Below are positions 4,681 to 61,051 of a stretch of DNA of 64,000 bases, piece after piece. Location of the stretch: assembly GCF_004364645.1 (NCBI RefSeq), contig NZ_SOAW01000001.1, positions 2,232,001-2,296,000 on the forward strand. Reading direction: 5' to 3'. The notes below the pieces were generated by a model. It did not search any database. It was given only the letters and a program-made list of their open reading frames with translations, and had not been told where the DNA came from. Both the position numbers and the translations under genes were made by a program. The DNA comes from Naumannella halotolerans (GTDB lineage: Bacteria > Actinomycetota > Actinomycetes > Propionibacteriales > Propionibacteriaceae). The first letter of the stretch is position 1. Every line of letters starts with the position of its first letter.

Positions 4681-5064
4681 TCAAGCATCAGGACCGTCAC
4701 CGCATCTCTTCAGCAAGTTCGGCCTCTGCGCAGCCTGTGGAGGGGCCGAACTTGCGGAAGGGATTGCCGTCGCCGGGCTCCACGAGAATAGACCCAGTTC
4801 CTGCACGGGCTCGAGCGCCTCCGGCAGCGCCCAGTAGTACACCCAGGTCCCGCGCCGCTCACAGTCGACCAGGCCCGCTTCGCGCAGCTTGCGCAGATGA
4901 TGGGAGACCGTCGGCTGGGAAACCCCGAGCTCACCCAGATCGCAGACGCAGATGGCCGCCCGGCTGCCGGCGATCCGCAGGTGCAGCCGAAACCGCACCG
5001 GGTCGCCGAGGACCTTGAAGATCTCCGCCGCCCGTAGTTCGAGTGAGTTCACCAGCTGATTCAC
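4681..5064 (-). CDS. arsR: ArsR/SmtB-family metalloid-responsive repressor
   Basis: A winged-helix regulator of about 127 residues. The ArsR core FKVLGDPVRFRLHLRIA is followed by CVCDLGEL (Cys39 and Cys41, numbered from the chosen start), the classical As(III)/Sb(III) sensing pair at the start of the recognition helix region, then SQPTVSHHLRKLREAGLV as the DNA-reading helix. It is divergent from arsM with 77 bp between starts, and a near-palindrome (5072-5089) lies between them. An ATG at 5082 would add six residues but lies inside that palindrome, so the GTG at 5064 is preferred; neither start has a well-spaced ribosome site. It probably represses arsM and itself until arsenite binds. Confidence 0.85.
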   Translation of the reverse strand: MNQLVNSLELRAAEIFKVLGDPVRFRLHLRIAGSRAAICVCDLGELGVSQPTVSHHLRKLREAGLVDCERRGTWVYYWALPEALEPVQELGLFSWSPATAIPSASSAPPQAAQRPNLLKRCGDGPDA

Positions 5065-40411: not shown

Positions 40412-41995
40412 CTAGCGGCGATCCCGGCCCGCGTTCATCGCCTTGCGCTGCTCCGCCTGCTGTCGCTGCGCCTCCTCGACATCGATACCGCCGGTGATCA
40501 GCACCGCGCCGACGACGACGGCGAGCACCACCGAGATCACCACGGGCAGCCCGAAGACGAGCGGGATCGTCACCAGGAGCACCACATCGAAACCGCGCAC
40601 CAGATTCGCGATCATCCCCGTCGGCAGGGCACCGGCCGGGCTGGCGACCGCGGGTGCCTGGTAGTTCGCCGGTTTGGCGGTCACCCAGCGGATCGCGCCG
40701 AGCAGACCGGCCACCGCGGTCATCAGTGACACCTGCAGTGCCTCACCCAGGGTCCGGGTGGCATCGACGCCGAATCCGACATAGGCCGGTGCGGTGGCGA
40801 TCGCGAAGGCCAGCGCCACGGCGGCCGGGATGGCCGACTGGGCCATCCGGATCCGGGAGGTCGGCATCGGCAGCATCCGGGCCAGCCCGCTGGTACGGGC
40901 CAGCACCCGCAACCCGCCGAACAGCGGGACCAGGGCCAGGAACAGAGCCACCGCGGCCAAGGGCGAGGTGACCGCACCGAGGCCGAGCGCACCGGTGGCA
41001 TAGGGGACGACGGCGGCGATCAGCGGACCGAGCAGCACCTGCGGACGCCGCAGCAACCGCTGCAGATCGCGCAACAGCAGGGCGCCGGCGCCCGTACCAC
41101 TGCCCCGGGTGGGCCGGACCTGGCCACGCTCACGAGCGCGCTGTTCGGTCAGGATGTCGTGGGCGAGCCCGAAGTCCAGGGCGTAGAAGGATCCGGCCAA
41201 CCCGCTGGCCAGCGATCCACCGGTGGTCAGCCGTACCCGCCGCAGATGCTGCAGCCGCCGGCGGGCCACCACCAGTGCCAGTATCAACAGCAACGCTGCC
41301 AGCCCGGCCACCACGAAGGCCAGCTCGGTCTCGGCCGAGGAACTGACGTGCAGATCCACCCAGCCGGCGGCGATGCCGACGACCAACAGCACCGCACCCA
41401 CCCCGACGATGCCGAACACCGCCTCGGCGACCCGGACCAGGAAGCTGCGCTCGGCGCCCTGTTCGGCCGCGGCGAAGGCGGTCAGGGCCGCGGCCGACAG
41501 GCCAGTTGCTGCGGCCCAGGCGATCACCCCGCCGGTGGAGATACCGGTGAGCAGGGAGATCAGGGCACCGGCGAGGGCGCCGGTCCCGGCCGTCGCAGCG
41601 ACCACCGCGAACAACCGGTTGGCGAGCAGCCGACCTCGGTTCAACGGCGCATCCATCAACCAGAAACCCTCGGCCGCCGAGGCCACCACCGGCCCGATCA
41701 GCCGCGACACCGCGAGTGCGAGGGCTCCGAGACCGGCCCAGGTCGCGACCGGGAGCAGGGTACGGGCGGAGACACAGGCGCCCTCCAGGCACTGCCCGGC
41801 GCTGACCTGGGCGCTCAGCAGCACATTGGCCAACATGGCACCGAAGACCACCAGCGCGAACAAGGCGACATAGGCATCGGACAGGGCCTCGGTGAGCTTC
41901 TTGGTGGCGCGACCCTGGCGCCACTCCTTGATCTGAGCGCGGAGTTCGGACTCCAGCCGCGGATCGGGGCCGTGGGTCTCGATCTGTCGGGTCAT
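40412..41995 (-). CDS. ABC-type export permease, DUF6297-like
   Basis: A 527-residue protein with about 12 predicted membrane helices and a basic cytoplasmic loop around 250-300 (RRRLQHLRR). It resembles the actinobacterial DUF6297 family, which I name from overall pattern rather than a catalytic motif. The start overlaps the stop of the ATP-binding gene by 4 nt (ATGA), so one nucleotide-binding subunit and one large permease form the transporter. No substrate-binding protein is encoded here, which suggests export. Substrate is unknown. Confidence 0.75.
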   Translation of the reverse strand: MTRQIETHGPDPRLESELRAQIKEWRQGRATKKLTEALSDAYVALFALVVFGAMLANVLLSAQVSAGQCLEGACVSARTLLPVATWAGLGALALAVSRLIGPVVASAAEGFWLMDAPLNRGRLLANRLFAVVAATAGTGALAGALISLLTGISTGGVIAWAAATGLSAAALTAFAAAEQGAERSFLVRVAEAVFGIVGVGAVLLVVGIAAGWVDLHVSSSAETELAFVVAGLAALLLILALVVARRRLQHLRRVRLTTGGSLASGLAGSFYALDFGLAHDILTEQRARERGQVRPTRGSGTGAGALLLRDLQRLLRRPQVLLGPLIAAVVPYATGALGLGAVTSPLAAVALFLALVPLFGGLRVLARTSGLARMLPMPTSRIRMAQSAIPAAVALAFAIATAPAYVGFGVDATRTLGEALQVSLMTAVAGLLGAIRWVTAKPANYQAPAVASPAGALPTGMIANLVRGFDVVLLVTIPLVFGLPVVISVVLAVVVGAVLITGGIDVEEAQRQQAEQRKAMNAGRDRR

Positions 41996-42636
41996 CCGCG
42001 TGGCTCGCCGAGTTCGACGGTACGGGTCGCGACCTGTCGGCTGAGCATCTCGTCATGGGTCGCCATGACGATCGCGGTGCCGGCCGCCCGATCGGCCCGC
42101 AGGCGTTGCGCCAGCCACTCCACACCCTCGGTGTCGAGGCGCTGTTCGGGCTCGTCCAGGACCAACAGCTTGGCCGGTCGGACGAAGGCGGTGGCCAGGG
42201 CCAACCGTCGTCGCTGTCCCGAGGACAAGGTGCCGGGCAGCTGCCCCGACTGCGGCACGAGCTGCACCTCGTGGAGCACCGCGTCGACCACCTCGTCGGG
42301 ATCGGCGACCCCGTGGGCACGGGCGAGCAGGTCGAGATGTTCGACCACGCTGAGGTCGGGGAAGAAGTCGAGGTCGTCGATCACCGCCGCCAGGTTGCGG
42401 CGGATCTGCGGATCGGTCTCGCTGACCGCCACCCCGTCGAGTTCGATCGTGCCCTCATTGGCCCGGTCGGCGCCGATCAGGCAGCGCAGCACCGTGGACT
42501 TGCCGGCACCGTTGCGCCCGGTGAGCGCCACTGCCTCACCGGCTCGGACACTGAGATTGAGGTTGTCGATGATGGTGGTCGAGCCGTACCGCTTGGTCAG
42601 CTTCTTCACCTCGAGCACGAGCTCGCGTTTGGCCAT
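41992..42636 (-). CDS. ABC transporter ATP-binding protein
   Basis: A 214-residue nucleotide-binding subunit. Walker [10 protein letters not shown] (40-48), ABC signature [11 protein letters not shown] (137-147) and Walker B LLVLDEP (157-163) are all intact, followed by MATHDEML with the switch His. The D-loop region reads EQRLD where GLD is usual. It is the first gene of the pair with the DUF6297-like permease. The ATG at 42636 has no ribosome site but CACAAT lies 7 nt upstream, the leaderless pattern. Confidence 0.92.
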
Positions 42637-42649: not shown

Positions 42650-42702
42650 CCGCTTCGGCCCCGATTCCTCGATTCGGGTGGCTCCGGGCGAGACCACCAA
42701 GA

Positions 42703-42780
42703 CGAACGTCACACTCGATCACCCGGGCACCCCCTGGTGGCGGCGGGTCGCGGGGAATCCTCGATCCAGTGTGACGTTCG
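42703..42780. repeat. 78-bp inverted-repeat element between divergent ABC and ubiE promoters
   Basis: The left arm at 42703-42720 and the right arm at 42763-42780 are complementary at 17 of 18 positions (core CGAACGTCACACT/AGTGTGACGTTCG), separated by a 42-nt GC-rich centre. It lies between the predicted -10 elements of the two divergent genes, so it is probably not transcribed. It may be a palindromic mobile unit, a cruciform or a paired protein site. Confidence 0.8.
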
Positions 42781-42869
42781 GCGTGTCCGACCGGGCCGGG
42801 CACAGGCGAGGGCAGGGCTCCTCCGGCGCCGGTGAACTGCCGACGATTCAACCCGTCAGTCTTGTCTGC

Positions 42870-42881: not shown

Positions 42882-43583
42882 GTGACTCCGAATGGCTACC
42901 GCGCATCCCTGAACAAGCGCCGCACCGAGGTGGCGGCGATGTTCGACAAGGTGGCCGGGCGCTATGACCTGACCAACAACCTGCTCTCCCTGGGCCTGAC
43001 CGAACAGTGGCGCAAGGCCGTGCTGCGGGCGATCGATCCGCGGCCGGGGGTGCGGATCCTGGATCTGGCCGCCGGCACCGGCACCTCCACCATTCCGCTC
43101 ACCGAGGCCGGGGCCACGGCGATCCCGGTCGATCTGTCGTTGGGGATGCTGGAGGTGGGCAAGCAGCGCCATCCGGAGTTGCCCTTCCTGGCCGGTGACG
43201 CACTGTCCCTGCCCTTCGGTGACGAGGTGGCCGATGTGGTGACCATCTCCTTCGGGCTGCGGAATGTGGAGGACACCGTCGCCGCACTTACCGAGTTCCG
43301 CCGGGTCACCCGCCCAGGCGGAAAGCTCGTGGTCTGCGAGTTCTCCACCCCGACCTGGGAGCCGTTCCGACGGCTCTACGACTTCTACCTGCAGACGGCC
43401 CTGCCCCTGGTGTCGCGGGCGATGTCGTCCAACCCTGCTGCCTACAACTATCTGATCGAGTCGATCCGGGACTGGCCGAACCAGCCTGGACTGGCCGAGC
43501 TGATGCAGCGGGCCGGTTGGCACGACATCGCCTGGAACAACCTCGCCGGTGGGGCAGTCGCCATCCACCGCGCGATCGCATGA
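42882..43583 (+). CDS. ubiE: Demethylmenaquinone C-methyltransferase
   Basis: Performs the last step of menaquinone synthesis, SAM-dependent methylation of demethylmenaquinone. The 233-residue protein has [19 protein letters not shown], the SAM motif [10 protein letters not shown] (61-70), FGLRNVED and the CEFSTP segment of the family (also called MenG). GTG at 42882 gives the normal N-terminus; longer upstream frames run through the inverted repeat and are rejected. Its TGA overlaps the ATG of the nuclease gene (ATGA). Confidence 0.94.
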
Positions 43584-60974: not shown

Positions 60975-61051
60975 CACCGCTGATGTGGCTCCAGATCGGA
61001 TTTCGGTCCCGATTCGGTCCGGTTCGGGCAACTGGAGCCACTGCAGCGGTG
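60975..61051. repeat. 77-bp inverted-repeat element between divergent nfeD and phosphoribosyltransferase promoters
   Basis: Arms of 20 bp at 60975-60994 and 61032-61051 match at 18 positions (inner perfect arm GTGGCTCCAG/CTGGAGCCAC, outer CACCGCTG/CAGCGGTG). The centre of 37 nt contains its own small hairpin (ATCGG/CCGAT). An extra GCGGTG at 60966-60971 can pair alternatively with the outer left arm. The element lies between the two predicted divergent -10 elements. Confidence 0.8.

Follow-up and report, generated by a model that had tools for sequence, protein, structure and literature searches.

In the genome of Naumannella halotolerans, intergenic inverted repeats form families whose members are alike in their arms and in their length but hardly in their centres, and a layout of element, gene and element recurs at some DUF559 genes of relatives of this bacterium and in Tsukamurella. 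The reading that we favour, and that we believe rather more than we doubt, is that of a REPIN-like system with its own AbiEi-like/DUF559 nuclease. The arms of a 78-bp element located at positions 42703-42780 of the window (the whole stretch of 64,000 nucleotides that was analysed) would be putative recognition half-sites of that protein. Taken together, the sequence comparisons point to an undescribed repeat-plus-nuclease system. A broader proposal, to which we lean somewhat less than we lean away, is that these repeats might represent a widespread, previously unnoticed self-spreading class in which each AbiEi-like/DUF559 protein recognises its own arms, brackets its gene with them and seeds solo copies via duplex DNA.

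The 42703-42780 element is 78 bp in total length, and its arms, CGAACGTCACACTCGATC and GATCCAGTGTGACGTTCG, are complementary at 17 of 18 positions. The left core arm (42703-42720, forward strand) is common to 37 copies, the centre of 42 bp (42721-42762) has kept its length while its sequence has mostly diverged, and the right core arm (42763-42780, reverse strand) was recognised by arm pairing and by a family scan. Together with outer 8-bp extensions of its arms, the element covers positions 42695-42788, the full arms being of about 26 bp (consensus CAACAAGACAAACGTCACACTCGATC). It is flanked by divergent genes that are outside the proposed system: its distance to the start of an ABC transporter ATP-binding protein gene (41992-42636, reverse strand) is 66 bp, and to that of the demethylmenaquinone methyltransferase gene menG/ubiE (42882-43583, forward strand; NF001241, 340.7 bits, cut-off 327) it is 101 bp. 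A sequence-only reading of this DNA had described a 78-bp inverted repeat between divergent ABC and ubiE genes, and both its pairing and its length are confirmed. The same reading had pointed to a second element of nearly the same size but with unlike arms; the sizes are indeed 78 and 77 bp, and the arms belong to two separate families, which are here called A and B. The family B element (60975-61051, 77 bp, arms CACCGCTGnnGTGGCnCCAG), located by a family scan of the genome, has 20-bp arms that are 90% complementary and a weak inner palindrome, aatcGgcc..ggcCgatt. A further small inverted repeat of the window (4709-4759; TTCAGCAAGTTCGGCC..) clusters with repeats at L103:3089 and L103:3315. A plasmid match to the ABC-menG region was uninformative.

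BLAST and pattern searches followed by a scan of the N. halotolerans genome (G000; 3,473,971 bases in 6 contigs) detected at least 37 copies of family A and at least 26 of family B, so that the class is larger than had been supposed from the two elements in 64 kb. These counts are lower bounds, since stretches were taken around good matches and some weak ones were left out; the A catalogue also excludes four combinations that reuse a neighbouring partial arm (60, 96, 117 and 120 bp). Chance is not the explanation, since this genome has 10 matches to the exact pair pattern AACGTCACACT-N30-60-AGTGTGACGTT and none to its reversed control. The A consensus given above was derived from 74 arms, and that of family B, which is about ACACCGCTGnnGTGGCnCCAGatcg, from 52. 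Measured from core arm to core arm, A elements are of 77 (4 copies), 78 (12), 79 (3), 83 (1), 89 (6), 90 (10) and 102 bp (1). Family B is more uniform still in a scan that permitted 55-140 bp, with lengths of 76 (1), 77 (23) and 78 bp (2). None of the 63 elements overlaps a predicted gene according to codon-model gene calls. Neither of the objections that had been named as possible, a lack of other such elements and an equal frequency inside genes, is thus what was found. The earlier suggestion of a class defined by geometry rather than by sequence stands with respect to the geometry, which is shared by elements of unrelated arms, but not with respect to the sequence, since within the genome the arms do form sequence families, each with its own arms and a nearly fixed length. 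An additional A element, of 78 bp by manual count, is split across contig ends (G000 C4 106914-107062, at the end of L107, and C2 1-133, at the start of L097) by what looks like an insertion sequence, perhaps of the IS3 type.

The connection with DUF559 genes was first sighted at two places, L102, where such a gene lies between A elements, and L174, where another lies near elements of a further family, D. Loci matching PF04480 (E up to 0.01) number eight in the N. halotolerans genome, one in G001, a genome of the same genus, five in G018 and five in G005. The gene called A-type (L277:1492-2415; G000 contig C2, C2:450168) sits between family A elements, which are found at -634, -328 and +1579 bp from its DUF559 match. 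This cassette is loose, with two elements 3' of the gene, a third about 660 bp upstream and a 57-aa reductase fragment between. The B-type gene (L283, L122:3651-4238; C3:294935) sits between two B elements, at -414 and +373 bp from its DUF559 match. Two more DUF559 genes of the same genome are bracketed by 47-bp and 40-bp repeats (L290, L291), and two 98-bp repeats (arms CGCACTTTTCTG) enclose the sole PF04480 gene of G001. The outer spans are 1097 bp (L290), 1106 bp (L291), 1115 bp (L275) and 865 bp (B cassette); in L275, L290 and L291 one of the repeats ends about 73-80 bp from the chosen start codon. The other four of the eight N. halotolerans genes (L273, L280, L286 and L289) are without a bracketing pair: L280 has a repeat on one side only, L286 and L289 have none, and the three D elements near L273 are 1.5-2.3 kb away and all on one side.

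The same layout was found in a member of another order, Tsukamurella. The best match of the A-type protein in the plasmid collection is Tsukamurella tyrosinosolvens WP_068740572.1, which is annotated as DUF559 (37% identity over 52%), and two 41-bp repeats, alike in their arms (TGCGGTGGAT) and unlike in their centres, stand on either side of its gene. In the same record, EL451_RS09310 lies between 42-bp repeats (arms AGCGTTCTG), and for EL451_RS09230 a single repeat was found, on one side only (400 bp scanned each way), so that two of the three annotated DUF559/AbiEi genes in 150 kb of this record are bracketed. At least five of the 13 gene-linked arm sets scanned (L290, L291, L284, L276 and L287) have further copies of the same length within 1 bp, one of those of the L284 type overlapping a predicted gene. 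For the 98-bp arms (800 kb examined), the Tsukamurella 41-bp repeat (150 kb) and some other gene-flanking repeats, no further copy was present in the DNA examined. Two single repeats also adjoin DUF559 genes. A perfect repeat (CGGACACTCGATCG..; L280:2361-2417, G000 C3) lies directly upstream of its gene and has ACACTCGATC in common with the family A arm, which suggests related specificities for L280 and family A. In G018, a repeat resembling family H (L278:1794-1870; arms CCTGGTTCTGCAGACGCAGTG) lies directly past the DUF559 match, on one side only.

The bracketing was evaluated by means of a flank score, defined as the summed matches among four 14-bp arms, taking one repeat per side of equal total length (tolerance 1) and reaching a maximum of 84. 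In the final test the flank limits were independent of gene ends. The threshold of 66 was set after the discovery set had been seen and before the validation loci, which come from 28 genomes outside that set, were obtained. A score of at least 66 was obtained at 12 of the 19 loci used for discovery and at 5 of the 28 used for validation; among the controls it was obtained for 10 of 2162 mispaired combinations of a left with a right flank and for 7 of 347 random genes. For the validation loci alone, Fisher's test gives p = 9e-6 against their own mispaired flanks (5/756) and 9e-4 against random genes; the other 23 of the 28 are below the threshold. L302, which looks positive by eye (76/76 bp), scores 56 and is counted as a miss. 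One of the seven random-gene positives is the G001 DUF559 gene itself, and two others (L210:10107-11003 and L202:9757-10668) are class members according to an HMM built from the class, the L210 protein having no Pfam match. In unbiased stretches, where about half of the genes outside the class were sampled, a score of 68 was reached by three of six class members, one of them the G001 gene already in the discovery set, and by two of 553 other genes. One of these two is a SAICAR synthetase gene of G018 (L208:15050-15919), which is without a DUF559 domain and has matching 91-bp inverted repeats on both sides. An earlier flank test based on exact 9-mers was too strict (1/19 against 3/849 controls), and earlier tests with guessed gene ends missed L277 and L283, or L275 and L283. 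The bracketing association holds for part of the DUF559 genes and not for all of them.

An alignment of six class I proteins (326 columns) has an invariant D240 and an invariant E251-I-D-G in the C-terminal half (residues are numbered after the first sequence of alignment A1). By our own reading, these residues fit a PD-(D/E)XK nuclease in that half of the protein. Pfam gives DUF559 and REase_MTES_1575 matches, and a PDB profile search matches 3hrl, an endonuclease-like protein, over the C-terminal part (4.7e-4). In the N-terminal half, AbiEi_1/AbiEi_4 matches in Pfam are below the cut-offs (E 0.0013 to 0.08), and the AbiEi models of PADLOC match better, with a best value of 3.7e-9 and 6e-4 for the A protein. 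Similarity of the B-type protein to the others begins only at about residue 73, which means that its N-terminal domain is lost or broken, and B arms are more decayed than A arms. These two data points are only suggestive of family B being an ageing family whose gene is without the N-terminal domain. DUF559 genes are frequent in this order, having been detected in 75 of the 117 genomes searched (E up to 1e-5). As far as our searches show, these genes have no settled function.

The arms are much better conserved than the centres. Mean pairwise identities of arms and centres are 0.93 and 0.47 in the 78-bp A elements (shuffled centres, 0.33), 0.92 and 0.44 in those of 90 bp (0.34), 0.96 and 0.41 in those of 89 bp (0.32), and 0.82 and 0.47 in the 77-bp B elements (0.29). 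Part of the centres of the 78-bp A copies have, by eye, GCGACACGCC in common, and these copies are therefore probably old relatives. The A/T content of the centres is periodic around the dyad, with periods of 10.25 bp in the 78-bp A elements (n=12) and 9.75 bp in the 77-bp B elements (n=17); neither was reached by any of 1000 shuffles. This periodicity is weak in the A elements of 89 bp (n=5) and 90 bp (n=8), at 0.18 and 0.08 over all periods, respectively, and 0.013 and 0.043 at 10.5 bp. The main A length classes are about 12 bp apart. From the period of about 10 bp, the fixed lengths and this spacing, we infer a protein complex that would bridge both arms of a bent duplex DNA. Left and right core arms are without clear covariation, whether one element per locus is taken (permutation fractions of 0.20 in A and 0.27 in B) or every copy (0.06 and 0.57), and this is what half-sites recognised in a duplex would show. 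Covariation is seen in the outer 8 bp of the A arms (153/224 against 138 after permutation, fraction 0.008), and a model based on duplex DNA alone would not lead one to expect it. The centres show no clear excess folding (loop z of -0.36 and -0.27 for A, -0.08 and -0.41 for B, and -0.30 and 0.17 for flanks). Inspection by eye revealed no consistent target-site duplication in the flanks of 37 A and 26 B elements, only scattered 3-bp matches, and no clear inner palindrome or GTAG tag within an arm in either consensus (74 arms of A, 52 of B).

Further families came to light when intergenic inverted repeats in sampled DNA of four genomes were clustered de novo and arm scans were added. In N. halotolerans, family C (53 bp, arms GTTCCGCAGGAnnTGCA; one 89-bp combination set aside) has 11 copies (L104:6714 and 6935; L090:3036 and 3731; L119:12097; L161:13734; L164:13651 and 14682; L165:9453 and 9562; L166:1815), and no gene linked to it was found. 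Family D has, by arm scan, four copies within one 20-kb stretch; this count refers to copies of 82 bp, and the clustering also joined an 86-bp and a 54-bp repeat to the family. Besides the 98-bp pair that flanks its PF04480 gene, G001 contains families E (65 bp, four copies, one 117-bp combination set aside), F (86 bp, two copies, by clustering and arm scan) and G (92 bp, four copies, weak arms). In G018, family H is of 76 bp, with three of three exact matches in the whole genome. Clusters of mixed length, mostly GC-rich hairpins, and the G005 clusters were left out of the family count. As with C, no gene is linked to families E, F and G; the only PF04480 gene of G001 goes with the 98-bp pair, so these three would need a gene missed by Pfam or another agent. 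In a cross-scan, families A to F and H to J were confined to their source genome; for G, one weak match appeared in each of two other samples. A class of repeats that share their geometry and have unrelated arms, each family being nearly fixed in length, is supported by these comparisons. Two observations were made in G018: families of 51-52 bp and 55 bp alternate in an array with a period of about 160 bp (L198:17052-17650), and there are many CCTGAGCCTGTCGAAGG inverted repeats of varied length (for instance, L213:8125, L204:5166 and L214:18318).

The distribution of families A and B is narrow. Each exact pair pattern occurs in one of 96 genomes, N. halotolerans itself, and one A pair pattern has no locus in a collection of genome contigs. 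A looser A pattern matches four single loci in unrelated taxa, which is near the estimated chance number (about 7), and eight viral contigs have one single A arm each. Neither family was found in the scanned part of G001 nor, by exact pattern, anywhere in that genome. Six of the 63 elements could be compared at five gene pairs whose two flanking genes are adjacent in G001, and none has an A or B element there. The intergenic gaps of G001 and N. halotolerans at these pairs are 97/245 (menG), 138/355, 111/307, 1235/792 and 602/208.

The proposed system would work as follows. Its protein would join an AbiEi-like DNA-binding N-terminus to a Vsr-like DUF559 nuclease of the PD-(D/E)XK type; a larger protein with such a binding domain on wider-spaced half-sites would fit the geometry. 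Two molecules may dock onto the two arms of the duplex and bend the DNA between them, as the constant spacing and the A/T steps every 10 bp suggest. The nuclease might then act at the element, and repair or copying could scatter solo elements through intergenic DNA, in a spread akin to that thought for RAYTs on REPINs, with an unrelated enzyme. What the comparisons establish is that repeats and genes are associated and that arms and length are constrained. Several observations speak against the reading: the DUF559 genes that are not bracketed, the families C, E, F and G to which no gene is linked, the gene-flanking repeats for which the DNA examined has no dispersed copy, the loose layout of the A cassette, the covarying outer arms of A, the lack of a consistent target-site duplication by eye and the weak AbiEi match of the N-terminus in Pfam. 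If this reading is right, scattered doublets that have their own gene would also have arisen around an enzyme with no relation to RAYTs. The broader proposal given at the outset would mean that the REPIN/RAYT lifestyle was invented twice, independently, and it would explain the presence of several diverged DUF559/AbiEi genes per bacterium. Tying some DUF559 genes to a specific DNA element would provide a cheap and immediate test of their role, and unexplained intergenic repeats would gain a likely owner. The repeat/nuclease pairs would also be a naturally occurring collection of proteins and sites whose specificity changes fast.

The elements could instead be operators, the AbiEi-like protein acting as a transcription factor that represses its own gene and a nearby regulon and the nuclease being secondary, which we consider rather unlikely. 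Paired 23-bp inverted repeats are bound by AbiEi and by Rv2827c, each in its own promoter, according to the available part of PMC7319586. Paired inverted half-sites do lie upstream of the AbiEi-type gene at bracketed loci, and the distance of about 73-80 bp between one repeat and the start codon in L275, L290 and L291 also fits this possibility. However, a second repeat lies downstream of the gene and others are dispersed, so that they are not confined to promoters, and several A and B elements are hundreds of bp from the nearest gene start. Family A elements lie in divergent (9), convergent (7) and tandem (20) gaps and at a contig end (1), and B elements in divergent (7), convergent (7) and tandem (12) ones (7, 9 and 10, respectively, with another gene model). 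Intergenic bases of unbiased stretches of this genome, in gaps of at least 100 bp, are 27% divergent, 9% convergent and 63% tandem. The preferred placement between divergent promoters that had been supposed is not borne out (9/37 A and 7/26 B elements), and it is convergent gaps that look over-represented, with 14 of 63 elements against 9% of intergenic bases. Elements between convergent genes are unexpected for operators, and so is the lack of A and B in the same-genus genome, within the scan and pattern search described above.

Ordinary MITEs, that is, ends of a DDE transposon whose autonomous copy has been lost or is unseen, with DUF559 genes as passengers, would agree with the size, the terminal repeats, the intergenic dispersal and the absence at comparable loci of the sister genome. 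They are improbable since the centres are hardly common between copies, no consistent duplication was seen by eye, and no long arm-to-arm transposon was visible among arm matches of the N. halotolerans genome with up to 1 mismatch; the bracketing of DUF559 genes by gene-specific repeats would also be left unexplained. A role in defence or conflict, with the nuclease as a guard of the genome and the repeats as protected sites or decoys, is likewise hard to credit. AbiEi-type and Vsr/REase domains occur in conflict systems (PADLOC matches; PMC3710099, consulted in part), but no methylase or toxin gene was noticed beside two cassette neighbourhoods (L102 and L174), and a search with the A-type protein gave nothing in the phage collection and three partial matches in plasmids. 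An RNA-level element (bidirectional terminator, processing hairpin or structured RNA) is very improbable: a transcript could form a long stem, but no Rfam match exceeds the gathering score in the 64-kb window, loop folding is near that of the flanks, the core arms are without clear covariation and gene orientation is unconstrained. True REPINs mobilised by a RAYT (Y1, HUH) transposase, which share with these elements the inverted doublet, conserved ends, variable spacer of set length, extragenic location and one flavour per dedicated gene (PMC3116915, in its available part), can be practically dismissed, since PF01797 has no match in the N. halotolerans genome (E up to 1), nor in a search of that genome (G000) together with G001, G018 and G005 (0.1), control genomes giving matches in both searches, and neither a clear palindrome or GTAG within an arm, by eye, nor excess folding of the spacers was found.

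Among known systems, VsrA of Caulobacter also has a DUF559 domain of the PD-(D/E)XK superfamily; in contrast to the protein proposed here, it is treated as an enzyme of mismatch repair with a link to cytosine methylation, and the accessible portion of that report mentions no repeats (PMC12907096). MITEs are, as the present elements, short and non-coding with terminal inverted repeats, but here the centres are hardly common between copies and neither a parent transposon nor a consistent duplication was seen. The operators of AbiEi and Rv2827c resemble the elements in that a winged-helix protein is placed on paired long inverted half-sites. According to the available part of PMC7319586, AbiEi binds two 23-bp inverted repeats and bends DNA, and Rv2827c binds pairs 13 bp apart. 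However, their half-sites are 3 or 13 bp apart and at one promoter (PMC7319586, same part), whereas 37-66 bp separate the arms in A and B (less in the smallest families), the repeats here occur on both sides of the gene and are also dispersed, and the C-terminus of the candidate protein is a putative nuclease domain.

In the open literature that was searched, we found no published account of a DUF559/AbiEi gene paired with dispersed repeats, nor reports of REPIN/RAYT in Actinobacteria. The CGTC-tagged REPs (Di Nocera 2013) are also dispersed dimers seemingly without a dedicated transposase, and some REP dimers of that study have spacers similar in length and not in sequence, in the portion consulted (PMC3733652). 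In contrast to the arms described here, they are palindromic units with a CGTC tag and belong to other phyla, Actinobacteria being unmentioned in the main text (PMC3733652). A close parallel is provided by REPIN/RAYT systems, or REPtrons. In the part of PMC3116915 available, REPINs are doublets whose spacer matters by its length and hairpin capacity, and RAYTs are distinct, single-copy genes with the repeat in their own flanks. The elements share with them the inverted doublet, the conserved ends, the spacer of set length, the extragenic location and the many copies (PMC3116915, same part). They differ in that the arms are without a clear palindrome or GTAG and look like half-sites of duplex DNA, in that the spacer shows no excess folding, and in that the candidate enzyme is an AbiEi-like/DUF559 protein and not a Y1/HUH RAYT.
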